Shown piece after piece: positions 1 to 27,152 of a stretch of 27,152 bases of DNA; position 1 is the stretch's first letter; each line of letters begins with the position of its first letter. The notes beneath the pieces were generated by a model, which saw only the letters and a program-made list of their open reading frames with translations, did no database searches and was not told where the DNA came from. Origin of the DNA: a virus; IMG/VR virus record IMGVR_UViG_3300043436_003380, positions 1-27,152 of that record; one strand, 5' to 3'. The translations under genes and the position numbers were made by a program.

Positions 1-384
1 CGACTGTTCAATCCGCAACAGGTCTGCCGAGTATCCGCGGCAAAGGATGGTTTCCGGCCGCGCTTTGTAGAGCCCCGAAACGGTTTCATAGACCTGGCCG
101 TTTTTCTCTATGTAGTTTTGCGTTTCGAGCCATAGCGCGTAGGTCCGACAGTACCGCGCCCATGTCGTCGCCGCGTCTTCCGACCAGACCCGCATGGTCG
201 AGAGCATTGGGACGGACGCCAGCCATTTTTCCAGCGCGACGCCGACCAGGTCCGCCGGCGGTTCCTTGGAATCGCCCGGCGCCGGTGGCATCCGCGACGC
301 CATTTTCCCAAGGCCCTCTTTGCCGGGATTGCCTTTGAGTATCTTCAGTGAGATCGGTGTCTTTTGGGGGCCGCGGCGTCCCAT
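1..384 (-). CDS. terS: Phage terminase small subunit, P27 type (3' end cut by window)
   Basis: The N-terminus MGRRGP, followed within 25 residues by LKxLKGNPGK, is the hallmark opening of P27-family small terminase subunits, which bind phage DNA and help the large subunit start packaging. The first 128 codons are present; the reading frame is open to base 1, so the C-terminal part and the stop lie outside. The start at 384 is fixed by the conserved MGRRGP; the upstream Shine-Dalgarno is weak (GGGTAA). The gene follows an HNH endonuclease gene, the usual HNH-TerS-TerL arrangement of phages with defined DNA ends, so TerL is expected next, beyond the left edge. Family assignment rests on motif recognition. 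Confidence 0.88.
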   Translation of the reverse strand, partial: MGRRGPQKTPISLKILKGNPGKEGLGKMASRMPPAPGDSKEPPADLVGVALEKWLASVPMLSTMRVWSEDAATTWARYCRTYALWLETQNYIEKNGQVYETVSGLYKARPETILCRGYSADLLRIEQS

Positions 385-2380: not shown

Positions 2381-2974
2381 TTAGCCGCGAACGATCCACA
2401 TCGCACCGGGAGCAATCGGCGTGGGCTGCGCCAACTGGACGTACACTTCGCTATTGCGCCCGTCCGCGCCCGCTGGGCCGGCGTCGCCCTTCGCGCCCGC
2501 GGGGCCGGCTTCGCCCTGGACGCCTTGAATACCCTGGTCGCCCTTAACGCCAGCGGGGCCAGCCTCACCGGCGATACCTTGCGGTCCCTGGATCGAGCCG
2601 CCCGAAACCCACTTCGCCCCGGCGGCGTCGTAGACCCAAAACGAATCGTCCGCCTGGACAATGTAGGAATCGCCCTGAGCCGCGCCGGCCGGCAGATCGG
2701 CTTCCGTCGGAACTTCGCCCTTGAAGTTGATGCCGAGACCGGCCGGGCCTTGGATACCCTGTTGGCCCGTAGGACCGGCTGGACCCTCCGGACCCGCTTC
2801 GCCTTGAATACCCTGGACGCCGGCGGGACCGGCTTCGCCAGCCGGACCGGCGGGGCCGACTTCGCCAGCCGGACCCGCTCCGCCGGCCGGACCCTGGTCG
2901 CCCTGCGGTCCGCGGATCGAAACCCAGGAAACGCCGTCGTATACGAGAACGTCTTGCGTGTCTGCCATTGTCAT
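2381..2974 (-). CDS. Collagen-like fibre protein
   Basis: A 197-aa protein with two Gly-x-Y blocks (about residues 20-80 and 130-170; repeated GPAGEAGPAG and GIQGVQGEAG units) separated by a globular spacer of about 45 residues (GINFKGEVPTEADLP ... GDSYIV ... W.YD...KW). The same kind of spacer occurs in the 701-aa fibre. Gly-x-Y repeats trimerise as a collagen triple helix in phage fibres. The N-terminus (VLVYDGVSWVSIRGPQG) matches the short module that opens the other fibre genes here. The ATG at 2974 overlaps the preceding stop as ATGA; a second ATG two codons later is also possible. Ends in MWIVRG. Confidence 0.8.
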   Translation of the reverse strand: MTMADTQDVLVYDGVSWVSIRGPQGDQGPAGGAGPAGEVGPAGPAGEAGPAGVQGIQGEAGPEGPAGPTGQQGIQGPAGLGINFKGEVPTEADLPAGAAQGDSYIVQADDSFWVYDAAGAKWVSGGSIQGPQGIAGEAGPAGVKGDQGIQGVQGEAGPAGAKGDAGPAGADGRNSEVYVQLAQPTPIAPGAMWIVRG

Positions 2975-3318
2975 TTCCTTTTCTTGAGAACCGGATATTT
3001 CCCAGGCCTGTACGTCAAACCTCCGGAAAGTGATGGATATGCGGGACGCTTCCCGCATGGGGTCGCCGCCACCGGGGGCAGCGGCTTGTATTTCAGACGG
3101 TTTCCGCAGGCGGTCTTCGTGACCGCGCGTGTTGACGTGTAAAGCCACATATCGCCCTTATCCGGCATCGCGGGGATAGACGCCTGCGGTCCGTAGACCT
3201 CGACGCTATGGCCGGCGGGGCCAGGCGGACCGGCCGGACCAGAGGCGCCGCCGCCTCCGCCGCCCGAGGCTATCGGCCGCCATTGCGTTCCGTCCCAATA
3301 GTAAAGAGCGTCCGCCAT
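2971..3318 (-). CDS. Small fibre/collagen-like protein with unusual C-terminal extension
   Basis: A 115-aa frame. Residues 1-62 are convincing: an opening MADALYYWDGTQWRPI module, a Gly-rich linker, a short GPAGPPGPAG collagen-like stretch, then HSVEVYGPQASIPAMPDKGDMWLY, which resembles the end of the neighbouring 197-aa fibre (SEVYVQLAQPTPIAPGAMWIVRG). That neighbour stops right after MWIVRG, but here the frame continues for about 50 basic, Pro-rich residues with no recognisable fold. The ATGA overlap with the next gene supports the frame being translated. The extension may come from loss of an earlier stop. Confidence 0.6.
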   Translation of the reverse strand: MADALYYWDGTQWRPIASGGGGGGASGPAGPPGPAGHSVEVYGPQASIPAMPDKGDMWLYTSTRAVTKTACGNRLKYKPLPPVAATPCGKRPAYPSLSGGLTYRPGKYPVLKKRK

Positions 3319-3321
3319 GCG

Positions 3322-3738
3322 TCAGGACCTTGGTTGAATGTAGAACTCTATTTTCCGGCGGTCGCGGCCCGGAACGTTCGACAAATCTTCAAGCGTACAA
3401 TCCAGCTTTGAATAGCCGCTTGCCGTGAATGTTTTCGAAAAGGTGCGCGAAACATACCCGTTTCGCGGTATCTGGACGCATTGAAACATGAAAGCCTCGT
3501 CGGGATCGGTAGGCGCACCGATACGCGCAGTGAAATCGACGACATAGCCCGGCTTGTAAACTACGTCGCACGCGTAAAGGTACGGAGGCTCCGCGGCCGC
3601 GGCTTCCTCCCAGACCAGTTTCCACGCGCCGCCCGTTAGGACATACATTTTCTTAGGCGCGACCCATGCGCCGCCGACCATGACCCCTTTCGGGGTCGCG
3701 GGCTTCCATGCTCCGGCGTTGAGAACTTGAACGGTCAT
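3322..3738 (-). CDS. Minor tail/fibre-associated protein
   Basis: A 138-aa protein. The first 50 residues contain three tandem short elements of the form (V/M)xxxGAWKxxxxxxV (LNAGAWKPA, VGGAWVAPKKMYV, TGGAWKLVWEE), a repeat common at the N-terminus of phage tail proteins that attach to the baseplate. The rest is beta-rich (YKPGYVVDFTARIG, FQCVQIPRNGYVSRTFSKTF) and has no family I recognise. The ATG at 3738 overlaps the stop of the 701-aa fibre gene as ATGA, which fixes the start five codons downstream of the first possible one. Likely a small structural or decoration subunit of the fibre complex. Confidence 0.65.
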   Translation of the reverse strand: MTVQVLNAGAWKPATPKGVMVGGAWVAPKKMYVLTGGAWKLVWEEAAAAEPPYLYACDVVYKPGYVVDFTARIGAPTDPDEAFMFQCVQIPRNGYVSRTFSKTFTASGYSKLDCTLEDLSNVPGRDRRKIEFYIQPRS

Positions 3739-5843
3739 CAGTATTCCACCCATAGGGTTCCCGCGCTCAGGCCCGTAACCGCGGGGGCTGCGCCGCCGGC
3801 TGCCTGCGCGATTACCCGCCCGTCTACATAGTCTTTTCTGGTCAAGTGGCTGGCGGCCGTGGGGGCCGCGGTGGTCGACTCGACGTTTGCCGTGATCGAC
3901 ACGACGCCGGATACATTCGTGACCGTCGGGCCTGCACTGCCAAACCGAATGGCCGCGCCGGTTGCCCGGACCTCTAGCAACACGACCGCCGCGACACTGG
4001 TCGTCGTCATCAACAACAGGTTGGCGTTATTGTTGCGGAATGCGACGCCACCGCTGGAGCCGAAAATGTTGTAGCTCGTCGCCCAGGTCATCGTATTGAC
4101 AGCCGTCGGGGCGACGATGGTCCCCGTCATCGTGCCGCCGGTCGTCTTTAGGAATTGCGTCGCGCCGGTGATCGCGCTGGATACTGCGCCATCGACGTAT
4201 TTTTTGTTCGCCAGGTCTTTATCATCGGCGGGGGTAAAGGGGGTCTGTGGGTTCGCTCCGAGGAACTGCACTTGCGCCGTATCGGGGGCGGCTATGAACG
4301 CTTGCCGGCCGCCCGGCATATACAAACGGTAATACGCGCCGTCGTAGTACGTATAAACGTCGGTTCCATTAAATCCGGCGGGGCCGGCGTTTGGCGCGTA
4401 CCGTAGGGGGCCGTTCATTACGTCGCCGGCTTTGTTGACGTAGTTCCCCGCGAGGCTCGCCGCACACACGCCGTTTGCGTCGATCGATAGCCCGGCGCCG
4501 ATTTTGATACCGCCCAGTACGGTCGCGCTCGCCTTCGGCAAGACGTAATCCGTACCCGCCGCGGCGCTGATCGTGCCATCGGCCGTAACCGTGATTCCGG
4601 CGCCGATTTTGACGCCGCCGAGGACCGTATCCGTAGCGATTGCCGTGGGGCCGGCCGGGCCGGTTTCGCCCTGGACGCCCGCCGGACCTTCCGGGCCGAC
4701 CTCGCCGGGAATGCCGGGTTCGCCGCGCTCGCCTTGAATGCCGGCCGGACCAGCGGGGCCAGCCTCGCCGGGGATTCCTTGCGGACCCTGCGAACCGACC
4801 GCGCCCGGCTCGCCGGCCGGACCCTGGACGCCTTGCGGACCCGCGACGCCTTGCGGACCTTGAACCGGGCCGGCATCGACCCAATCGTATGCGTCTTCAT
4901 CCCATACGAACCCGTGAGCCGGGGCAGGCTCCGCGACGGTCCATAGGTCGCCCTGCGCCGCCGTGTCCGGCAGATCGTCTACCGTCGCGACGTTGCCGCG
5001 GTAGGTGATCCCGAGCCCCGGCGCGCCTTGAATGCCGGGTATCCCCTGGATTCCTTGCGGACCCTCCGGGCCGACTGCGCCGGGCTCGCCTTGCGGTCCG
5101 ACCGGGCCAGGCTCTCCGTCGCTTCCGTCGATGCCGTCCTTTCCGGGTTCGCCAGCCGGGCCGGGGGCGCCGTCAACGCCGGGGGCACCGTCGCTTCCGG
5201 GTTCGCCCTGGATACCTTGCGGACCGGGTTCGCCTTGCGGTCCTTCCGGGCCGACCTCGCCCGGAATGCCCTGGACGCCGTCGACGCCAGCCGGGCCGGG
5301 GGCACCGTCGACCCCCGGAATCCCTTGCGGAATCTTGAACGACAACAGCGCTTTGTTGGCGTTGCCGAGATTGACGACCTCAGCCGGATAGCCGGGTTCG
5401 ACCGTGACAGTTTCCGCGACTTCGACGGTCGCCGCCGTGCCGGGGGGGCCAGGCGGGCCGGCCGGCATTTCGACCTCCGGCGCGTTCGTGCGAATCCACA
5501 AATCGCCAACGTCACCAGGGGGCGGCGCCGTCTCCGAAACGATATGGGCGCCGCCGTCTTCACCGGGCGGGCCTTGAATCGGTCCCGTGTTGACCCAGGT
5601 TTCGCCGTCCCAACTGGCGCCGTCGCCAGGCTCGAAACCCTCCGGCGTTCCCGGCGGGATGGGGTCCGGGATAACCCACAGATCGCCGTCTTCCGGCGCG
5701 TCCGCCGGGGGCCACGCCTCCGCCACGCCTTTGACCTGGATACCGGAGCCGGGTTCGCCCGGAGGACCAGGCGGACCGCCCCAAACGACGATTTCGACGG
5801 CGCCGGGCGTTACCTCTACGGTCGATTTTTGGCGGGAACTCAT
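3738..5843 (-). CDS. Long collagen-like tail fibre protein
   Basis: A 701-aa fibre. The first 150 residues alternate short Pro/Gly collagen-like stretches with globular spacers of the type [20 protein letters not shown] ... GDLW and [20 protein letters not shown]. Long Gly-x-Y arrays follow (about residues 155-270 and 325-400; for example [19 protein letters not shown]), split by another spacer at about 275-325. The C-terminal 290 residues contain two copies of [18 protein letters not shown] with [10 protein letters not shown]-like strands, then a shaft-and-tip region including [10 protein letters not shown] and [10 protein letters not shown]. These KKYVD motifs are characteristic of phage tail fibre shafts. 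ATGA overlaps at both ends show tight coupling to the adaptor upstream and the small tail protein downstream. Confidence 0.9.
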
Positions 5844-13877: not shown

Positions 13878-14786
13878 ATGTCGCTCACCGATTTCCTACA
13901 TACGATTTACATCCCCCTCCGCCTCCGCGGCCGCAGCCACAACAGCGTCCGCCTACTGGCCCACGCTATCCGGCAGTATTCGAAATTCCTCCGCCGAGAC
14001 GCGACACTAGAGGATTTCGACGATCTAACCGTTTCGCAATTCCTTTCCCACCGGGGCGCGACACTCTCCCCGTATTCGGTCGAGCGCGAGCGGTCCGGAC
14101 TACTCGCGCTTTGGAGACTCGCCGCAGACCGGCGGCTTGTGGATCTCCGGCCATGCGTCCAGGCAGAACTACTCCCCGAGCGAATCCCACGGGCCTTTAC
14201 CGTCGCGGAACTTGAGCGCCTCTATGCCGCCGCCGAGGATACGCCGGGGTGGATAGGCCCGGTGGCGGCCGGCGCGTTTTGGACCGCCGCTATCATGGCC
14301 CTGTACGAATCGGGGGAGCGTATCGAGGCGATGCTAAACGCCCCGAAATCGGGCTATACGGCCCCGTTCCTCCGCGTTCCCGCCAGCATTCGCAAAGGGA
14401 AACGAACCGAGCGCATCTACGAATTTTCGGCCGATACTTGCCGGCTTGTCGAAATCGCCGCGAAACATGACGCGGCCACGCTGTTTCTATGGCCGATGGA
14501 CCCAAGCGGCATCTACAACCATTTCCACAAGATTACCCACCGCGCCGGGTTGGGGTCCGGCCGGGAAGTTATGTTCCATTGCATCCGCCGGACAACCGCC
14601 AGCCATCTCGCCGCCGCGACGGGTAGCGTTGACGCGGCAACCGTCTATCTTGGGCATTCTTCCGACCGAATCACCCGCCGCAGCTACATTGACCCCCGGA
14701 TAATGGGGGCCGCAGGGGTCAAACCGCTTGACGCACTCCCGCGGATTCGACCGCCGGCCGGGCCGAAAATCCATCGGATTGCATGA
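13878..14786 (+). CDS. int: Tyrosine-family phage integrase
   Basis: A 302-aa site-specific recombinase, the only plus-strand gene. An N-terminal SAM-like core-binding domain (about 5-95, with SHNSVRLLAHAIRQYSKFLR) precedes the catalytic domain with a full set of residues: R148 in ESGERIEAML, K173/K175 in the RKGKR beta-hairpin, H234-x-x-R237 in FHCIRRTTASHLA, H260 in YLGHSS, and the nucleophile Y270 in RRSYIDPR. It lacks a long N-terminal arm-binding domain. AAGGG precedes the ATG at 13878. It would integrate the phage into the host chromosome. Its last 68 bases overlap, on the opposite strand, the end of the GT8-like gene. Confidence 0.92.
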   Translation: MSLTDFLHTIYIPLRLRGRSHNSVRLLAHAIRQYSKFLRRDATLEDFDDLTVSQFLSHRGATLSPYSVERERSGLLALWRLAADRRLVDLRPCVQAELLPERIPRAFTVAELERLYAAAEDTPGWIGPVAAGAFWTAAIMALYESGERIEAMLNAPKSGYTAPFLRVPASIRKGKRTERIYEFSADTCRLVEIAAKHDAATLFLWPMDPSGIYNHFHKITHRAGLGSGREVMFHCIRRTTASHLAAATGSVDAATVYLGHSSDRITRRSYIDPRIMGAAGVKPLDALPRIRPPAGPKIHRIA

Positions 14787-15489
14787 CCCGCCACGCCGTC
14801 CGGTCGATCCGCTGCCCGCGCAGCTTCCGCCCCGTGAAATGGTAGATGAACCCATTCATCCGGCCCGTATTGTGTTCGGGGCGAATGTCCTGGCCGGCCG
14901 CTACCGTATTCCAGGCCGCCGGCAACCACGTTGCCGGGGCCGCCTTCGAATGCAACAAGAGCGATAGGCAGACCTGTTCCGGTAGCCGCCGAGGGTTCCA
15001 GCGGTTCCGCTGCCCGCACTCGCGGAGCCGATGGAATAGGCCCGCGTGAACTTGCGGCCCGTACAGGAAAAAGCCGCCGTTCAAGTGTTTCGAATCGGGG
15101 CAGGCGGGTAGGCCCGTCCATTTCGACCATTGCCCGACGCAAAACTCCCGATGGCGCGAGATGATTTTCCCGTCTTCATAGCCAACGTCCCCGGCCGCGC
15201 CCGGAAACTGACAGGCGGACACAACCCCGATACTCTCCGCCGGGACCAACGCGAACGGGTCCGGCGCGTCATCGCGGATGAGCATATCGGCATCTAGCTG
15301 TAGAACGCGTTCATAGTCCGCCAGCCGGACCGGCGCGAACGCTTTCTGCCAGAAGATATGAACGGGAGCCAGCCGCCCGCGTAGCTCGACAAACTCCACG
15401 CCCCAACGGGCCGCGGCCGCCTCGAAACTCTCCCGGCTTTTCGGGTGGATCGACTGCCCCCCGACGTTCAAAACCGCGAGCGCTTTCAT
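14719..15489 (-). CDS. GT8-like glycosyltransferase
   Basis: A 256-aa enzyme with family-8 glycosyltransferase features: MKALAVLNVGG at the N-terminus, YERVLQLDADMLIRDD with the DxD metal/nucleotide-sugar motif (66-68), HLNGGFFLYGP (136-145) that positions the sugar, PEQVCLSLLL and a C-terminal IYHFTGRK (215-222). Such enzymes move a sugar from a UDP-sugar to a protein or glycan. It is the last gene of the long tail operon, coupled by ATGA to the GT25/sulfotransferase gene. The acceptor is not known; the adjacent Ser-rich virion-type proteins are the obvious candidates. The end overlaps the convergent integrase gene. Confidence 0.85.
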   Translation of the reverse strand: MKALAVLNVGGQSIHPKSRESFEAAAARWGVEFVELRGRLAPVHIFWQKAFAPVRLADYERVLQLDADMLIRDDAPDPFALVPAESIGVVSACQFPGAAGDVGYEDGKIISRHREFCVGQWSKWTGLPACPDSKHLNGGFFLYGPQVHAGLFHRLRECGQRNRWNPRRLPEQVCLSLLLHSKAAPATWLPAAWNTVAAGQDIRPEHNTGRMNGFIYHFTGRKLRGQRIDRTAWRVMQSDGFSARPAVESAGVRQAV

Positions 15490-16790
15490 GCTGCCACCGC
15501 CGCCCGGATATGCCCGGCCGCCGCCACCAACGCTTCCGGCGCTGGCTCCAGGCCCAGGAATCCCACCAGAGCCCCGGCGACCGCCGCGGGATCCGCCAGC
15601 ATTTCCGCCCATGCCACCCGAAACACCCGCTCCGCCGGGAACCCCTGCAGAAACGCTTCCCGTTCGCCGTGTAGCCATGTTTGCACGGCCGCGGCTTCCG
15701 CATCCGAAACCGCCAGCCAGCCCCGAGCGGCCCGGCTGCGCCGCTGGAGACTGTCAATGGATTCCGCCAGCGGCCGTTCACAAACCACGACCCGCAACGC
15801 GTCCCCGGCGGCCGCCACCAACTCCGGACCCATTGCGCATAGGTGGGGATATTTTCCGCCGGCTATTGCCCGCGTTTGCATCCGGCCCCGAATCCAGCCG
15901 GCCAATTGCCGCGCCGCCTCCCGCCTATCCGCGATTTCGCACCGGGGGAACTTTGCGGCCCGTTCACAGATCGCGGCCAGCCCGACCGCCTCACCTCCGC
16001 CGCCGTTTTTCCGTTCCCACCCGCCAAGGCGGTCGCCCATGCTTACCCCCAGCTTGTGCAGAACCATAGCCGTCGCGCTCGATCCCGAGCGGTGTAGGCC
16101 CATGACCGCGACAAACTGTTTTGAATCCGGAACCGTCGCGGCCCTCGCGCCCCACCAACGTTCGATAACATCCTTTCCCGATATGTTTGACCGGCCCGCC
16201 GCCTGCCCGCAAAGCCAGACGGCCGGCGCGTAGAAACCGCTTTCCTCCGCTTTGTGCAGGCGGCCGAAGTGGTGGTCGATATGGCATGAATTCTTCCACT
16301 GGTCGCACGACTCAAGCCACCGATAAAGCCGCAACAGCCCGGCCCGGCCGCGAACCGCGTAGGCATGTGTCCGGTTGATATTCGAAGCCTTGACCACCAG
16401 CGGATTTCCGGGGATTGCCAGCGGCGGCCGCAAGTGTTGCCCGCCTAAATACGCTTGCGTCCAGCCGGCCGGGAGCGCGTCGAAATACCTTTCCGCCGCT
16501 TCACTGAAACCGGGGGAAAACGTCGCGTCATCCTCGAAAATCAAAACGCGTTCCTGCCCGGCGTTCAATGCGTCTTCAATGATTCGTACATGGGACCGAT
16601 AGCATCCCCACGCGCCTCCGCCCTGCCGCCACCATTCCGGGCTCTTGCATTTCGCGCCATCGACCGCGACTTCCAGGCCAATAGGCCCATACGGAAAATC
16701 TGCCGGAACCCCGGCCCGGAACGCGGCCAGCCGATCCGGCCGCCGGGCCAACGAAACAACCGCCACCCGGTCAAAGCGTTTATTAGACAT
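15486..16790 (-). CDS. GT25-type glycosyltransferase fused to sulfotransferase-like domain
   Basis: A 434-aa two-domain protein. Residues about 5-205 are a family-25 glycosyltransferase: DRVAVVSLARRPDRLAAF at the start, AWGCYRSHVRIIEDAL (60-74) and LIFEDDATF (83-91) with the EDD metal site; this family includes LOS and collagen galactosyltransferases. Residues about 226-434 are sulfotransferase-like: FVAVMGLHRSGSSATAMVL (226-244) has the 5'-phosphosulfate loop GxHRSG(T/S)S, and the pattern continues with RVVVCERPLAESIDSLQRR. PAPS would be the sulfate donor. The start at 16790 is preferred because it overlaps the upstream stop. The fusion suggests adding and then sulfating a sugar on one acceptor. 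Confidence 0.75.
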   Translation of the reverse strand: MSNKRFDRVAVVSLARRPDRLAAFRAGVPADFPYGPIGLEVAVDGAKCKSPEWWRQGGGAWGCYRSHVRIIEDALNAGQERVLIFEDDATFSPGFSEAAERYFDALPAGWTQAYLGGQHLRPPLAIPGNPLVVKASNINRTHAYAVRGRAGLLRLYRWLESCDQWKNSCHIDHHFGRLHKAEESGFYAPAVWLCGQAAGRSNISGKDVIERWWGARAATVPDSKQFVAVMGLHRSGSSATAMVLHKLGVSMGDRLGGWERKNGGGGEAVGLAAICERAAKFPRCEIADRREAARQLAGWIRGRMQTRAIAGGKYPHLCAMGPELVAAAGDALRVVVCERPLAESIDSLQRRSRAARGWLAVSDAEAAAVQTWLHGEREAFLQGFPAERVFRVAWAEMLADPAAVAGALVGFLGLEPAPEALVAAAGHIRAAVAA

Positions 16791-17187
16791 ACCCCAGCTT
16801 TCTTGCATTGCGGATCGCCCGCGCCACGACAAGCCGCGCCACCGTCGCCACAAACGGCAGTTTCCGCCGGCCGCTTTCCTCGCGCAACCATTCAACCACC
16901 GTTGCCCGGTTTTTATCAACCCACGCAACGCCGCGGCGGTCCATTTCAGCGGCCCGCGCGTTACATTTACAGGTAGGGGAAGAACGTATTCCCACCAGCG
17001 ATAGTAATTTTTTTAGCTCTGTTCCCGCGCCGCCGGGGGGGGGCCGCGGCCGAGGATAGGCCGGGTGGTTTTCGTCTATCGTCCACATGGGACCGTCCCG
17101 CGAAACCACGCACGGCATAACGACGGCCAACAGGTAGCCGCGCTCCCGGCATCGCTCAAAAAGGTGCCGCCTATGGCATGTAATCAT
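16783..17187 (-). CDS. Small Cys-containing protein, unknown (134 aa)
   Basis: A 134-aa basic protein starting MITCHRRHLFERCRERGYLL, then AVVMPCVVSRDGPMWTID, a Pro-rich linker, GTELKKLLSLVGI and TCKCNARAAEMDRRGVAWV, and a C-terminal helical half ending AIRNARK. I recall this layout from planctomycete phage and prophage genes near tail proteins and glycosyltransferases, but know no function. Cys residues at 4, 13, 26, 72 and 74 could bind a metal. Start and stop are coupled to neighbours (ATGA with the poly-serine protein; overlap with the fusion enzyme). Confidence 0.6.
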   Translation of the reverse strand: MITCHRRHLFERCRERGYLLAVVMPCVVSRDGPMWTIDENHPAYPRPRPPPGGAGTELKKLLSLVGIRSSPTCKCNARAAEMDRRGVAWVDKNRATVVEWLREESGRRKLPFVATVARLVVARAIRNARKLGYV

Positions 17188-17948
17188 GGGAGTGGGTTAA
17201 CGTCACGGGTTGCGCCGAACGAAATGCTACAGGTAACGCCGTCGCTTACGCCTGCACCCTTCCAGACCTCCGGCCGCGTCACGAGCGCTTTGGGGCCGGG
17301 GGCCGCAACCGTGCCAAACTTCCAGCCATCGGGGTACTTAGGCAAAGGCAACAACACTCCGTCGACATAACTGCTCCAGAATCCTTCTATACACTGCGGC
17401 CCGCCTTCGATTGTTTCGATGCTTAAGCGGGCACCGTCGCAATTCCCAAAAATCTCAGTTCCGCGATCTAGCCTAATGCCTAACACAGGCCAATCCGGCG
17501 GGAGTTTTAGCGTGCCTTTCCATACCAAAAGCTCATCATACAATTCAGGTCTTGGGATATATTCTAGTTCGACCTCTTGATTTAACGCCTCCGCGTATCC
17601 GGCCGAAACGCCGGGAATACACCACGGCAACGGGTCTGAATCGACAAACCCGCATAGCTTAACCGTGGCCGTTCTGGGAACATTCTCGCCGCAAACCCAA
17701 GGAGGCGGCTGCGGGTTGCAAGCCTCGTGGGCTAGGTCAAGGTCTATGAACCCGCCCTGATCTAGGCAGACATCATTGGGGAGAAAGACTGTCTGGATGT
17801 TGTTTGGGAAGCTGGAGTTACAGAAGTAGCAAGGCGGATCGGGCGGCGACGACGAACTAGACGAAGACGAACTGGAAGACGATGAACTAGAAGACGATGA
17901 ACCGCAGCATTCGCAGTCGCTGCGAACCGTCCGGGTAGCGCTGTTCAT
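17184..17948 (-). CDS. Poly-serine, Cys-rich tail-operon protein
   Basis: A 254-aa protein. After MNSATRTVRSDCECCG comes a run of 18 Ser (residues 17-34), then a Pro-rich, Cys-containing region (PPDPPCYFC) and a beta-rich domain of about 200 residues (FIDLDLAHEACNPQPPPWVC, ATVKLCGFVDSDPLPWCIPG, LLVWKGTLKLPPDWPVLGIR) with an even scatter of Cys that could form disulfides. No catalytic motif is seen. The ATG at 17948 overlaps the preceding stop as ATGA and has AGGG just upstream; two earlier ATGs in frame are less good. It is probably a virion surface protein; that is inferred from the operon. Confidence 0.65.
   Translation of the reverse strand: MNSATRTVRSDCECCGSSSSSSSSSSSSSSSSSSPPDPPCYFCNSSFPNNIQTVFLPNDVCLDQGGFIDLDLAHEACNPQPPPWVCGENVPRTATVKLCGFVDSDPLPWCIPGVSAGYAEALNQEVELEYIPRPELYDELLVWKGTLKLPPDWPVLGIRLDRGTEIFGNCDGARLSIETIEGGPQCIEGFWSSYVDGVLLPLPKYPDGWKFGTVAAPGPKALVTRPEVWKGAGVSDGVTCSISFGATRDVNPLP
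17847..17900 (-). repeat. Poly-serine tract, 254-aa protein
   Basis: Eighteen Ser codons in a row, using several TCN codons and AGT rather than one repeated triplet. It follows Cys-Glu-Cys-Cys-Gly. Confidence 0.85.
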
Positions 17949-19678
17949 GTTCCCTGCCATACCCGCGCCCATATTTTCGTCTTTGTCACAACAAGCTGGC
18001 CGTCTTCACAGCTTACATCCGTAACGACTTCCAGCCATTCGCCGGGGCCGAACGAACCCGAGCCCGGCGGCCCGGAGGATGAGCCGTCGCTACTAGGGGG
18101 AGCGCACCCGCAAACCTCGCAGCATTCGGCCGCCGTATCGTACGGGCCGCTCACGGGCGTGTTACCGTCCCAACGATCCCCCGATTCGTTCGGTTGCCGG
18201 CAAACCGCCTTTGTTTCCTCGCCGTTCGGCCAATAACAGTACCACGCGCCACCGCTCCCGCTAGAAGGGGGAACACAGCCGCAAGCCTCACAACATTCGG
18301 ATTCCGTACCATACGGGCCGCTTTGCGGGTCCAGACCTTCCCAGACTCCGCCGGGGGCAGACGATTGCCGGCATATCGCCTTTGTCTGGTCCCCGTCCGG
18401 CCAATAACAGTACCAGGGCGGCGGCGGATTACATTCCGCCTCACATTCCTCGCGGGTATCGTGCGGCCCCGAACTAGGGAATAGCGGTTCCTGGCCCTCG
18501 CCAGGGGTCCACAAGCCTAGTTCGTCATCTTTCGAGTCTGATACATGGCATTCCTTTATCGGGCTCCCGTCTTCCGCCGTGCCGACCTCATAACAGTACC
18601 AGCGGCCCCAATAGCTGGAACCGTCGCTAGACGTTGAACTAGACGAATCACCGCCGCAGGCCGCCGCGCATTCGGCAGCGGTTTCGTATGGCCCCGATTC
18701 CGGGGAAAGCGGTTCCCCGTCATCGCTCGACCCGTCGCCGGGGCCGGGTGGGGTCCAAAGCGCGGCCGGGTCTTCCGGATCGTCTGGGGTATGGCATTCG
18801 CGGATTGGGGTTCCATCGGATGCCGTATCGACAACGTAACAATACCAGGGGCCGCCGCCGGATGAATCGGACGAACCCGAACCGGATGAACCAGAAGACG
18901 ATGAACTTGCGCAGCCGCAAACCTTGCAGCATTCTTCCTCTGTATCGTATGGCCCGCTTACGGGAGTATTCCCGTCATGGCAGTTTCCGGATTCGTTCGG
19001 CTCCGCGCAATATGCCTTGGTTTCCTCGCCGTTCGGCCAATAACAATACCAACCGCCCCCCGATGAACTAGAAGACGAACTAGGTTCGCTGGAGGAATCC
19101 GACGATTCAGAAGACGAACTGGAAGAAGACGAACTAGGTTCGCTGGAGGAATCCGACGATTCAGAAGACGAACTGGAAGAAGACGAACTGGAAGACGATG
19201 AACTGGAAGACGATGAACCGCAGCCGCATTCCATAACGCGCAGGATTCGCCAAAACGGTTTTTCGCCGTCATCCCGCGGAAATTCGTACCGCGCCTCCAC
19301 CACCGATTCCGCCGGCAGCGGTTCCGATATGTCTTCCTCGCGGGCCAAATTCCAGAGCCGAACGACCGTGGAAACGTCGCGCAGCGTTTGCGGTTCGTTG
19401 TCGCCGCCGGCCGGCGTGAACCCAACGCCGCAGCCCTCCGCCGATTCGGCCGAGGAAAGGAAAACCTCCTCCGCCTCAACTTCCCCGCACGAATCCAGAT
19501 CCGCCAACAGCCGGAAGAACAATTCCTGCGGCGGTTCCTCCGGCCGATACTTCCAGTGACCCGCGCCATCCTGGCCGGGGCCGCGCTCGACCGAACGCAC
19601 GGCGCTGGCTATACGATCGGCGGCCGCTGGCGTGAAAACAACGCCAGGCTTTCGAGACGACGGGCGGCGCGTGGACAT
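17945..19678 (-). CDS. Modular poly-serine protein with five Cys-rich WYCY...SGPY modules
   Basis: A 577-aa protein. Residues 1-150 form an N-terminal domain (FTPAAADRIASAVRSVER, LFFRLLADLD, TVVRLWNLAREEDI, FWRILRVMECGCG), probably the virion anchor. A Ser-rich linker with 18 consecutive Ser and a repeated ESSDSSSEPSSSSSSSSS unit spans 155-207. Five Cys-rich modules then start with WYCY at 210, 278, 360, 422 and 479; each has a later C, an SGP(Y/H) turn, and an ECC/EC pair followed by CGC or C. Modules are separated by short Ser, Gly or Pro linkers. A beta-strand tail (549-577) ends the protein. The pattern suggests a disulfide-rich, rod-like surface display protein, possibly glycosylated. 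Confidence 0.75.
   Translation of the reverse strand: MSTRRPSSRKPGVVFTPAAADRIASAVRSVERGPGQDGAGHWKYRPEEPPQELFFRLLADLDSCGEVEAEEVFLSSAESAEGCGVGFTPAGGDNEPQTLRDVSTVVRLWNLAREEDISEPLPAESVVEARYEFPRDDGEKPFWRILRVMECGCGSSSSSSSSSSSSSSSSSSESSDSSSEPSSSSSSSSSESSDSSSEPSSSSSSSGGGWYCYWPNGEETKAYCAEPNESGNCHDGNTPVSGPYDTEEECCKVCGCASSSSSGSSGSGSSDSSGGGPWYCYVVDTASDGTPIRECHTPDDPEDPAALWTPPGPGDGSSDDGEPLSPESGPYETAAECAAACGGDSSSSTSSDGSSYWGRWYCYEVGTAEDGSPIKECHVSDSKDDELGLWTPGEGQEPLFPSSGPHDTREECEAECNPPPPWYCYWPDGDQTKAICRQSSAPGGVWEGLDPQSGPYGTESECCEACGCVPPSSGSGGAWYCYWPNGEETKAVCRQPNESGDRWDGNTPVSGPYDTAAECCEVCGCAPPSSDGSSSGPPGSGSFGPGEWLEVVTDVSCEDGQLVVTKTKIWARVWQGT
19058..19216 (-). repeat. Ser-rich linker with 54-base tandem repeat
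   Basis: Encodes residues 155-207 of the modular protein. Two near-identical 54-base units (ESSDSSSEPSSSSSSSSS) follow the run of 18 Ser. Codons for Ser are mixed (TCG, TCT, TCA, TCC, AGT). Confidence 0.85.
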
Positions 19679-20562
19679 TAGCCAATGCTCCCGAACCCGG
19701 AGAACGGATAGGTACCGTAAGGGTTCACGCCGTCGCCGTCGTTAATGACCTTGGGGAAACTAGGCGTCCCGGCATCCACGGCAACGCCGCCCGACAGGCT
19801 CGCGGGTTCCTTAATTGGTTTCTTGTCTTTACCCAAAATCGCCGCGGTGTATTGCCCGGACCCGGTGGGGTTGCCCTCTTCGTCGACTAACTGAGAGTAC
19901 CCAATATCCAGCGGTTTAAGGAACCAGGTATCTTCCCGGTAGTTAAATTCGAACGTAACTTCCCAATAGACAAACATCTGCCCATCGGCGTTTTCGGTTT
20001 TCTTGGAAAACCGGCCACCCTGGCATTTCCAGGTATGTTTCGGACAACCAAGAAACGTGTCGGAATTAAGTTTATTCGTTGCCGATTGTAGGATCCCGAG
20101 AAAAGACAGATTCCCGTAACATCGCGTTAGCGAAACAGAAAATTCCGCCGTATCCATCGTAAGATCCGGTAGCGAAATACCCGCGGAATTCGTTATTGGC
20201 TTCCCCTGTTTGTCTTGCCAGCACGGCGCCGACGCAACCGCACTACCGCCGCTCCAAACGTCCGCCGGCAACTGGAACGGTTCCGGCTTGTCCTCGCGCG
20301 CAGGCGTCGAATATTTCACCGTCACGACATACAAAAGTAACGTGTCGCCGCGCGGCTTGCAGTCAAACTCCATCGCGTAGACGGAACCGTCGTCCGGATG
20401 CGCCGCGCCAAACGAAATCCCCGGCGCTTGCGATATATCGCGAATAGACGTAGACGGAGAATCCACGCGGACCAGGAACGACCGGGAATAGTTCATCGTG
20501 TCCCGGTATTTACCGGAAACGCTGCGATCGTCGATTGATTCCGATACGGCTACGATCGCCAT
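19678..20562 (-). CDS. Distal tail-type protein, unknown
   Basis: A 294-aa protein directly after the tape measure, where distal tail or baseplate hub proteins sit. It is beta-rich (YSRSFLVRVDSPSTSIRDIS, YAMEFDCKPRGDTLLLYVVT, QMFVYWEVTFEFNYREDTW) with conserved-looking Trp and Cys. The C-terminal 40 residues (SGGVAVDAGTPSFPKVIND) look like a flexible tail. AAGGGG precedes the ATG at 20562. No enzymatic motif. No named family is recognised; a baseplate or tail-tip role is inferred from position alone. Confidence 0.6.
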   Translation of the reverse strand: MAIVAVSESIDDRSVSGKYRDTMNYSRSFLVRVDSPSTSIRDISQAPGISFGAAHPDDGSVYAMEFDCKPRGDTLLLYVVTVKYSTPAREDKPEPFQLPADVWSGGSAVASAPCWQDKQGKPITNSAGISLPDLTMDTAEFSVSLTRCYGNLSFLGILQSATNKLNSDTFLGCPKHTWKCQGGRFSKKTENADGQMFVYWEVTFEFNYREDTWFLKPLDIGYSQLVDEEGNPTGSGQYTAAILGKDKKPIKEPASLSGGVAVDAGTPSFPKVINDGDGVNPYGTYPFSGFGSIG

Positions 20563-20571
20563 GTCTGCCCC

Positions 20572-22113
20572 TTAGAAATCCTGTTCGACCAGTTCCAGGC
20601 CCATGTCTTCCGTATTGTCCGCGATCCTCGCGAGATTGTCGGCATTCTCTTTTTCGAACGTCCGCTTCCCACTGTCCGGGGTCATAAGGCGGAGCATTTC
20701 ATTTACGCCGGCCGTCGAACGAACGTCGAGCCCTTTCGCTAGCTTCGTTTCGTCGATGACCACCTCCGGCGGCGGTTTCGGTTCCAGTGTCGTTTTCGCC
20801 GCTTCATCCGTCGCCGTCCGCGCTCTATCAATGTCGGCGCGGATGCCGCGGAATGCCGTCGTGATGGGGCCGGCAACGCCCTCCGTCCCGTCCTTCGCCC
20901 GCTCCCCGAATGTCTCCCCGAACAGCCGGCCGGCTTCCGACGCGTTATCAAGCATCGCCTGCCCGTACACGCCCGCCATTTCGTTAGAGGCGGCCGCCAG
21001 TTTCGCGGCCTCCTCCGAATAGCCCCCGGCTCCAGGTATGTAGCTTGAAGCGCCGGCAATCAATTCGAAAAACTTCCCCGCAACACTCAGGAGAACGGCA
21101 CCAATTGCATTACCGGCGACTTCGAACGACTTGAAAACCGCCTGCGCGAACGTCATGGCCCGGCCGAACAGGTCGACAATCGTGGCCCAATACTGCCCGA
21201 CGCCCTCCGCGAACCGGAATACCGCCGGGATACTGTCGACGACGAAATCCGCAGCTTGAACCAGATAGTCCGCCGCGTCCAGGATCGCGTCCGCGATCGC
21301 CTCACCTATGCTTTTGCCGCCGAACCCCGAGACGAAATTCGTAAACGCTTGATTGATAGCCGTAACGGCCGGGGCCAGGTTCGCCGTAATCTGGGTTACA
21401 ACGCCCTCGATCGCCTTTTGGACCAGCGTCCAAGAGTCGTTCATCGCCTCAACGTTCGTTCCTTGAACATTGGTTACGGCCAGGCCGAACCGCTCCGCCT
21501 GTTCGGTCGCCTGCCGGATGCCTTCGCCGCCGCCCGCAAACAACGGGAGCAACTCCGCGCCAGCCTTCCCAAAGAGCGCGATAGATGCCGCGGCCCGCTC
21601 CGCTTCCGACGGTAGCGCGGCGATACCGTCCGCAATCAACGCGAACCGCTCCGAACCGCTCTTGCCCTGGAGATCCTCCAGAGAAAGACCGATCGCGGCG
21701 AAAGCCTTCGTAGCCGTCTTCGACCCCTGCGACGCCTGGACAAACGCCCGATCCGCCTTCGTCAGCGCGTTGCCTATCTTGTCGACGCCGACGCCGGCCA
21801 GGTCGCCCGCCAGCGCCAAACCGGCGATTTCGCTATATGTCTGCCCGGTCCGCGCCCCCAGTTTCGATAGCGTGTCGATCGTCTCCGACGCTGCCGAAGA
21901 CATTCCGTAGAGCGATTTCGTAGCCGACGAAATGCCCGCCGCAATCTGCCCGAATAGCTGCGCCCCGGAAATGGCCGTCAACGCACCCAGACCGGACCGC
22001 AGACCCTTAACGTCTTTCGCCAGCGAGTCGAAAGCCGCCGACGCCGTCTTCGTGCCCGCGACCAGGCCCGCCGTATTCGCGGTAAAAACTGCGGCGATTT
22101 TCGACGTTGCCAT
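20572..22113 (-). CDS. Tail tape measure protein
   Basis: A 513-aa protein in the place of the tape measure, right after the frameshifted tail chaperones. It begins KIAAVFTANTAGLVAGTKTA, the repeat-like helix of tape measures, with long Ala-rich helices (SAAFDSLAKDVKGLRSGLGA; SKLGARTGQTYSEIAGLALA; DKIGNALTKADRAFVQASQG), a Leu/Ala-rich central part (QAVFKSFEVAGNAIGAVLLS) and a charged C-terminal end (EKENADNLARIADNTEDM). The length would set a tail near 75-80 nm using the usual 1.5 Å per residue, short for a siphovirus. ATG at 22113 follows the chaperone stop without gap. Confidence 0.85.
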   Translation of the reverse strand: MATSKIAAVFTANTAGLVAGTKTASAAFDSLAKDVKGLRSGLGALTAISGAQLFGQIAAGISSATKSLYGMSSAASETIDTLSKLGARTGQTYSEIAGLALAGDLAGVGVDKIGNALTKADRAFVQASQGSKTATKAFAAIGLSLEDLQGKSGSERFALIADGIAALPSEAERAAASIALFGKAGAELLPLFAGGGEGIRQATEQAERFGLAVTNVQGTNVEAMNDSWTLVQKAIEGVVTQITANLAPAVTAINQAFTNFVSGFGGKSIGEAIADAILDAADYLVQAADFVVDSIPAVFRFAEGVGQYWATIVDLFGRAMTFAQAVFKSFEVAGNAIGAVLLSVAGKFFELIAGASSYIPGAGGYSEEAAKLAAASNEMAGVYGQAMLDNASEAGRLFGETFGERAKDGTEGVAGPITTAFRGIRADIDRARTATDEAAKTTLEPKPPPEVVIDETKLAKGLDVRSTAGVNEMLRLMTPDSGKRTFEKENADNLARIADNTEDMGLELVEQDF

Positions 22114-25675: not shown

Positions 25676-27016
25676 TTACTTCGTCGACTTCGTGGAAGTG
25701 GTCGAGGTAGTGGGGGCCGACTTCGAAGATGGAACGTCGCTCGAAACCGTAGACGGAGCCGAGGGGGTCGCTACGCCGGTTAGTTTCGCGCAGTAGCTAG
25801 GCGAGTGGACCGACCAGGCATACCGGGCAGTTCCGACGAAAACCGTTTCGTCGTACTCAATCGCCCGCTCAGTCGAAGCCCGAATCTGGAGCCCGGCAGG
25901 CTTGTAGCCAATCGCACACGACGAACCGAAATCGCCGTAGACCGCAAGCGTGTCGGCTGGCAAGTCTTGCGACTGATAGACCGGCGCACCGTAGACGACC
26001 GGACGAACCGCGTCTCCGATGCTCGCGCCGATCGCCCCAGCCGCAACGGCCATGATCTGACCCCAGCCGGCCGGGGAAACGACCCACGCACGGTTACGGG
26101 CATTCGGATTCACGCAAGAAACGACCTGCGCGAGAATCTCCGGCGACAGAGCGCCCGTCGAGGCTACGATATTCGAAGCCGGAATCATGCCGCAGAGGCC
26201 GCCGCCAGGAATGCCGGCAACGGTATCGCCCTGGAGCCAGGTCTTGTCGATCTTCCGGGCGAACGCGTAGGCAAACTGACTTGCCACCAACTGCGCGACG
26301 CTAACAAACGCGTCTTCCATCAACTCATTCGAAACCTGCGCCCGCGCGCCGATTTTCTTGAGATCGAGCGCCGCCCGCGTTCCGCCCCCAAACGTCACGG
26401 GCTTGATTTCGCAGTTTTCGAGGTAGAACTCCGCCTCTTGCATCATCTCCGCGACGGGAAGATACATTCCGGGACCATTCACCGCGTAGGTAGCACAGAC
26501 CTGAGTAGCGACGGACGAATAGGACAGGAGATTCAGAATTCCCCGGTAAATGTCATAGGTGACAAGCTCAGAGCCGCGGCCGTCGTAGGTGGGCGAAAAT
26601 TCGCCCATTGCGTTCGGCTCTTCCGTCGGCGTCGTGAAATCGCCGCGCAGTTCACCGCGAGCCAGAGCCCGTAGGAACCGACCGGCCGCCGCGGCCTCTT
26701 CCGCGTTGTCGAAACCCTGGATCCGTCCGAGCGTAGGCATTGCCCGCCGGACAGCGACCGGGGCAGGGGCAGGGACGACGACGCCGGCAGTCGTGACGGC
26801 AGACCGAACGGCCGCAGCCTTCGAACGCGCATCGGCGGCCTTATTCTCTACCGAGAGACGGGACCGGAGGGAATCAATCTCAGCGGTCAGCTTGTCGACC
26901 GTGACTCCGCGAACAGATTCATCCGACGCGTCGGCCGGCTCCATTGCGGTGATTGCGTCCAGTTCAACGATCTTTGCGTCCAGGTCTTCGACCAACTTCG
27001 TCTGAGTGGCATTCAT
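25676..27016 (-). CDS. Major capsid protein, HK97 fold
   Basis: A 446-aa protein of the HK97 major capsid type. The N-terminal 80 residues (TQTKLVEDLDAKIVELDAIT, TAEIDSLRSRLSVENKAADA) are a helical scaffold-like delta domain that a protease would remove. The mature part shows PVAEMMQEAEFYLENCEIKP, ALDLKKIGARAQVSNELMED, FARKIDKTWLQGD and AVRPVVYGAPVYQSQDLPA, the order of E-loop, spine helix and P-domain strands. It ends in a Ser/Thr/Lys-rich tail of about 30 residues (PSSKSAPTTSTTSTKSTK), unusual for the family. A gap of about 100 bases lies upstream. TAAGGG is 11 bases before the ATG. Confidence 0.9.
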   Translation of the reverse strand: MNATQTKLVEDLDAKIVELDAITAMEPADASDESVRGVTVDKLTAEIDSLRSRLSVENKAADARSKAAAVRSAVTTAGVVVPAPAPVAVRRAMPTLGRIQGFDNAEEAAAAGRFLRALARGELRGDFTTPTEEPNAMGEFSPTYDGRGSELVTYDIYRGILNLLSYSSVATQVCATYAVNGPGMYLPVAEMMQEAEFYLENCEIKPVTFGGGTRAALDLKKIGARAQVSNELMEDAFVSVAQLVASQFAYAFARKIDKTWLQGDTVAGIPGGGLCGMIPASNIVASTGALSPEILAQVVSCVNPNARNRAWVVSPAGWGQIMAVAAGAIGASIGDAVRPVVYGAPVYQSQDLPADTLAVYGDFGSSCAIGYKPAGLQIRASTERAIEYDETVFVGTARYAWSVHSPSYCAKLTGVATPSAPSTVSSDVPSSKSAPTTSTTSTKSTK

Positions 27017-27120
27017 TGCGGGCGGTTCCCTTACGGTTAAGAGTTACCGGGAAACACACTTGCCCGGAATGCCAAGAAAGGTAAACGTCTCCGCGTTCCC
27101 CTTGAATCATCGGGCCGCGG
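27017..27120. other. Gap upstream of the capsid gene
   Basis: About 100 bases between the stop at 27121 and the capsid start. A small inverted repeat CCGGG ... CCCGG spaced by 11 bases is present. No clear promoter was recognised. Confidence 0.35.
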
Positions 27121-27152
27121 CTATTCGGCCGCCGCCCGGAACTCCCGCACCA
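27121..27152 (-). CDS. C-terminal end of the gene before the capsid, possibly the prohead protease (partial)
   Basis: The last nine codons and a TAG stop in one minus frame read VREFRAAAE. A frame ending here fits the position of the prohead protease that usually precedes the capsid gene. Only a few codons are visible, and another frame ending in TGA near 27108 is also possible, so this is tentative. Confidence 0.35.
   Translation of the reverse strand, partial: VREFRAAAE

Follow-up and report, generated by a model that had tools for sequence, protein, structure and literature searches.

Our analysis of a linear 27-kb virus sequence (IMG/VR record IMGVR_UViG_3300043436_003380, whose full 27,152 nucleotides are called the window below) suggests that long serine (Ser) tracts in two predicted tail proteins, pS1 and pS2, serve as acceptors of O-glycosylation by phage-encoded glycosyltransferases (GTs), one of which is fused to a sulfotransferase. 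We regard this acceptor role as rather probable, and sulfation of the glycan as well as a role in host contact as less certain than that. The genes form a five-gene minus-strand set (14719-19678) directly behind tail genes in the late operon, the minus-strand order being major capsid, connector, tail genes, tape measure, g294, pS1, pS2, a small Cys protein, a GT25-sulfotransferase fusion and a GT8-like protein. An earlier note on this DNA had claimed that the five genes continue the tail operon with overlaps, and we find all five open reading frames (ORFs) in place with overlapping junctions: TAATG, as read in the sequence, between g294 and pS1; ATGA between pS1 and pS2, which puts the pS2 start at 17948; ATGA between pS2 and the small Cys gene; an 8-nt overlap (ATGTCTAA) between the latter and the fusion, which starts at 16790; and ATGA between the fusion and the GT8-like gene. 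Judged from these overlaps, the five proteins may be made in a fixed ratio. As is characteristic of phage virion glycosylation systems, the GT genes adjoin virion structural genes, both in the window and in a prophage of strain TBK1r, where the gene set comes after portal, head-protease, neck, major tail and tape-measure genes.

The acceptor reading is carried by recurrence. Searches of IMG/VR and GTDB contigs gave 75 non-redundant loci with the fusion, around which we scored Ser-rich stretches (15 or more Ser among 30 residues, an arbitrary threshold applied to mechanically picked ORFs). Counted in 1-kb bins that were summed by hand, 113 of 206 bins within 3 kb upstream are Ser-rich, compared with 2/259 of those lying farther upstream and 5/364 on the downstream side. 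A Ser-rich neighbour within 3 kb accompanies 58 of the 68 classifiable fusions but only 3 of 13 GT25 genes without a sulfotransferase (Fisher 2e-5, relatedness not being controlled). The Ser-rich proteins of these loci fall into several N-domain groups, mutually unrelated at phmmer E 1e-4, and the backbones that carry them extend from temperate, siphophage-like genomes to that of a 187-kb phage (L033), in which the fusion and GT8 are directly preceded by a Ser-rich protein. Cys repeats like those of pS1 are absent from most of these proteins; Ser richness is what they have in common.

Two further anchors point the same way. One N-domain family of tail proteins was first spotted in fusion loci and then searched for regardless of transferases; in a tally built from Pfam member counts, partly by hand, a GT lies beside the tail protein in at least 13 of the 18 loci where it has a Ser tract and in at most 9 of the 42 where it has none. 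Most of these Ser loci have, in place of the fusion, either a GT4, frequently accompanied by GT2 or a radical SAM protein, or Mannosyl_trans3, and different enzyme families take the same place beside Ser-rich tail proteins. The order Ser-rich tail protein then GT4 is seen in L288, L304, L305, L307, L315, L319, L321, L323, L328 and L331, some of which also have a radical SAM protein or GT2; in L281 and L299 a Ser/Gly-rich protein is followed by a GT (Mannosyl_trans3 in L281) and an apparent FkbM methyltransferase. With the small Cys protein as anchor and after de-duplication, GT25 occurs in 7/7 loci with a Ser-rich upstream protein as opposed to 0/38 without (Fisher 2e-8), the positives here being largely the fusion-anchor loci and the negatives new. 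Of the five genes whose joint presence in relatives the earlier note had proposed as a check, the Ser-rich tail proteins and the transferases go together on all three anchors.

pS1 (17945-19678, minus strand like the rest of the set) is a 577-aa protein made up of an N-domain, a Ser tract, five Cys-rich WYCY repeats and a C-terminal part. Its N-domain (about 153 aa, 19220-19678), delineated by a hidden Markov model family of 16 proteins, is common to tail proteins of other phages, both with and without a Ser tract; AlphaFold models it as a helix plus a barrel resembling the oligonucleotide/oligosaccharide-binding fold (pLDDT, the predicted local distance difference test, 74), and this model finds no significant fold match in PDB or BFVD. 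The Ser tract (19061-19216) contains runs of 18, 9 and 7 Ser, with TCA, TCG, TCT, TCC and AGT codons mixed. The five repeats (WYCY...C...SGPY.T..EC...C; 18104-19051) have no Pfam match, and when sequenced genomes were searched directly with pS1, nothing was found. pS2 (17184-17948, its longest form starting at 17972) has 254 aa, including a run of 18 Ser at 17847-17900 in mixed TCN/AGY codons, and ends in NPLP. Over 60 loci, Ser codons are spread across TCN and AGY with a median entropy of 2.37 bits of 2.58, and two adjacent Ser codons are the same in 19% of cases, which is the value expected from pooled frequencies, that is, in random order. Since the codons are mixed and randomly ordered, DNA slippage is not favoured as the source of the runs, and our data argue for selection on Ser itself. 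Codon mixing cannot, however, tell an acceptor from a spacer.

Turning to the enzymes, the fusion (434 aa, 15486-16790) comprises a GT25 half (about 16152-16790) and a sulfotransferase half (about 15489-16118), both of which exceed their curated Pfam cut-offs: Glyco_transf_25 (PF01755) with E 9.6e-7 and 29.3 bits against 24, and Sulfotransfer_3 (PF13469) with E 1.9e-6 and 28.7 bits against 27. Among 15 aligned homologues the former domain is matched by 15 and the latter by 13; the EDD motif is invariant in all 15 sequences, and a P-loop-like GxHxSGSS and R340...S348 are invariant or nearly so. The last two we take to be the 5' and 3' motifs for binding 3'-phosphoadenosine 5'-phosphosulfate (PAPS), R..S being the 3'-phosphate motif. 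The fusion foreseen from motifs in the earlier note is thus borne out by domains and conservation, and its sulfotransferase half is, by the same features, predicted to be of the PAPS type. Compared with PDB, the fusion profile matches procollagen galactosyltransferase 1 (COLGALT1) best (E 2e-10) and sulfotransferases weakly. COLGALT1 acts on collagen hydroxylysine and has no sulfotransferase domain, unlike the fusion in the window. That the nearest solved structure to the GT25 half is a protein-modifying GT25 supports the acceptor reading.

The GT8-like protein (256 aa, 14719-15489) has invariant DxD, NGG/NAG and HF motifs. Alone, the window protein finds no Pfam match, and Glyco_transf_8 is matched weakly by 3 of 11 family members (best E 0.0035). 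Its AlphaFold model (pLDDT 80) matches GT-A enzymes, with PBCV-1 A64R on top (E 5e-7) and UGGT and blood-group GTs among the others. So of the GT8-like call made before, the GT-A transferase part holds on fold match and DxD, and GT8 membership is unsure. A64R, described as a glycosyltransferase of the major capsid, belongs to a virus that glycosylates its own virion, and the likeness of our model to it supports virion glycosylation here as well; unlike the window enzyme, A64R comes from an algal virus and another cassette, and the two share 11-12% identity.

In the mechanism that may be envisaged, pS1 and pS2 would be mucin-like virion proteins, encoded beside the tail genes, whose Ser tracts are O-glycosylated in the cytoplasm by transferases of the same late operon. 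The GT25 half would take a hexose from a nucleotide sugar and attach it to Ser, or to a sugar that is already in place, the GT-A/GT8-like enzyme would add or extend a sugar, and the fused sulfotransferase half would pass sulfate from host PAPS to the glycan. The tail tip would then bear a charged brush of sulfated glycan, which would hold the stalk in an extended form and may play a part when the phage meets the planctomycete surface. We infer the order of these reactions, the presence of the proteins in virions and the role in adsorption from the gene set. Support for glycosylated Ser tracts comes from the sharp upstream peak, the three anchors, the several N-domains and GT families, codon mixing, the gene context in TBK1r and the fact that none of the five proteins has a membrane-type hydrophobic segment.

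Several of our own findings weigh against this. At 10 of the 68 fusion loci, some of them for technical reasons, no Ser-rich protein lies within 3 kb. GT25 genes without a sulfotransferase lie beside Ser-free pS1 homologues (L034, L038, L043, L046, L052, L133, L135), so the earlier note's case for refutation, transferases in relatives that lack the poly-Ser genes, has partly come about. The GT25 tree offers too few independent changes for sulfotransferase versus Ser tract, and the link between the two cannot be separated from ancestry; the Ser-rich/GT4 loci, too, are mutually related (GT identity 64-87%) and hence amount to few events. Finally, the case for a glycan on Ser and for pS1 and pS2 in the virion is built from genes, and poly-Ser linkers that act as plain spacers are known from bacterial carbohydrases (PMC2386152).

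This last point leads to the alternative that survives best, though we consider it unlikely: that the virion is glycosylated on other acceptors, either the Cys-rich repeats of pS1 or collagen-like fibres, with poly-Ser as an unmodified spacer. Long Ser runs between domains, common and without known modification, are indeed shared with Saccharophagus and Cellvibrio carbohydrases, where, unlike for the window proteins, they are described as linkers and no neighbouring GT is reported in what is available of that source (PMC2386152). Collagen-like (GXY) proteins, probably tail fibres, are encoded in the window at 2381-5843, in the same genome as a GT25 half that resembles collagen galactosyltransferase. 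However, within the flanks examined, which are possibly too short since in the window itself the collagen genes are about 10 kb away, none of the 75 fusion loci has an ORF of the (GXY)8 collagen-like kind on the gene strand, and we reject such fibres as a general acceptor. As for the Cys repeats, they are missing from most of the Ser-rich proteins, which have Ser richness in common.

Less probable still is a scenario in which the transferases act on glycans of the host surface, in lysogeny or in the course of infection, to bring about serotype conversion or superinfection exclusion, while poly-Ser serves only as a flexible linker. Morons often sit beside an integrase, and the cassette does adjoin one: a tyrosine integrase gene on the plus strand (13878-14786; Pfam Phage_integrase E 3e-9) is convergent with the GT8-like gene, their 3' ends overlapping by 68 nt (14719-14786). 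Pfam also describes GT25 as a lipopolysaccharide biosynthesis family, and PHROGs classes these GTs as 'moron'. Against this stand the position of the genes, whose starts overlap, within the late tail operon and the lack of a membrane protein or flippase in the cassette: among the five proteins there is no Pfam match to, or membrane segment of, the gtr serotype-conversion parts (flippase GtrA, bactoprenol GtrB, membrane Gtr). Nor would host-directed activity account for several GT families beside tail proteins that are Ser-rich and rarely Ser-free. That planctomycete phage tails often have both Ser-rich proteins and GTs, and that the two meet by chance through common descent, for which the sparse changes in the GT25 tree, the relatedness of many loci and a possible abundance of Ser-rich tails in Planctomycetota could be cited, is to our minds very improbable in view of the sharp positional peak upstream of the fusion, the 38 small-Cys loci without GT25 of which none has a Ser-rich neighbour, and the unrelated N-domains and GT families involved.

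One member of the set appears to be a bystander to Ser-tract glycosylation. The small Cys protein (134 aa, 16783-17187) has no informative Pfam or PDB match, and an anchored search found its relatives to be common in viral contigs (317 candidates), mostly in phages having neither Ser tracts nor GT25. We therefore reject it as a part of the module and regard it as probably a general tail-end gene, so that the five-gene unit proposed earlier does not hold up. Its C-terminal domain (G-G-ELK...CxC...WL..E) belongs to a common viral family, and the tetrapeptide NPLP ends the protein upstream of the small Cys gene in 46/62 loci, including phages without Ser tracts (window 17184-17187; loci L386-L465).

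Farther up the operon lie g294 (19678-20562, minus strand), a tail protein by its position between the tape measure and pS1 that is conserved in relatives, and the tape measure protein itself (20572-22113, minus strand; PHROG tail length tape measure, E 2e-31). A terminase small subunit-like ORF sits at the left edge of the window (1-384) and the major capsid gene at the right (25676-27152); because of these two edge genes, the record looks like a fragment without the terminase large subunit and portal.

Nearly every full fusion in a sequenced genome comes from Planctomycetota, the strains with the system being TBK1r, SV_7m_r, K23_9 and Rhodopirellula rubra, and since the hosts of its relatives are planctomycetes, the window's own host is presumably one as well. 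A search of the phylum gave a strong match in 3 of 294 genomes, two of them previously known carriers, so the fusion is rare per genome. In the 'Phages' collection GT25 matches are weak and confined to unannotated huge phages. An unannotated 484-kb phage record has two GT25 homologues about 2 kb apart (L067, 5390-8642). On a bacterial contig without obvious phage genes, a GT25 gene adjoins a 2420-aa Ser-rich ORF (L173, 9974-19108).

How does this relate to known systems? Virion glycosylation by phages is in itself already known (PMC12619734): as far as that summary of Freeman et al. 2023 goes, mycobacteriophages use phage-coded GTs that place glycans at the C-termini of capsid and tail tube subunits, that is, on structural proteins. 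Here, by difference, it is long Ser tracts within tail proteins that are the candidate acceptors, and the GT carries a fused sulfotransferase. In Gram-positive bacteria, serine-rich repeat glycoproteins likewise combine a serine-rich protein with dedicated O-glycosylation on Ser/Thr (PMC6973325), unlike which we deal with phage tail proteins, a GT25-sulfotransferase fusion and phage gene neighbours; the five proteins include no match to GtfA/GtfB or accessory Sec families. In the open-access literature searched we found no paper on sulfotransferases in phage virion glycosylation, which is weak evidence, and no GT-sulfotransferase fusion coupled to Ser tracts. If our reading is true, the GT25-sulfotransferase lineage would, to our knowledge, hold the first known sulfated phage glycoprotein.

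Phage virion glycosylation is known from few systems, with acceptors and purpose mostly open. A recurring Ser-tract tail protein with an adjacent transferase would offer a rule by which acceptor sites can be predicted from sequence, points to sulfation as a new kind of virion modification and brings in a predicted bifunctional GT-sulfotransferase enzyme. Because it is present in sequenced Planctomycetota strains, the system is testable. More broadly, and with somewhat less than even confidence, we propose that phages of the Planctomycetota may follow a general 'phage mucin' strategy, in which Ser tracts of tail proteins are coated by interchangeable phage transferases (GT25-sulfotransferase, GT4, Mannosyl_trans3), with sulfate added in the GT25-sulfotransferase lineage.

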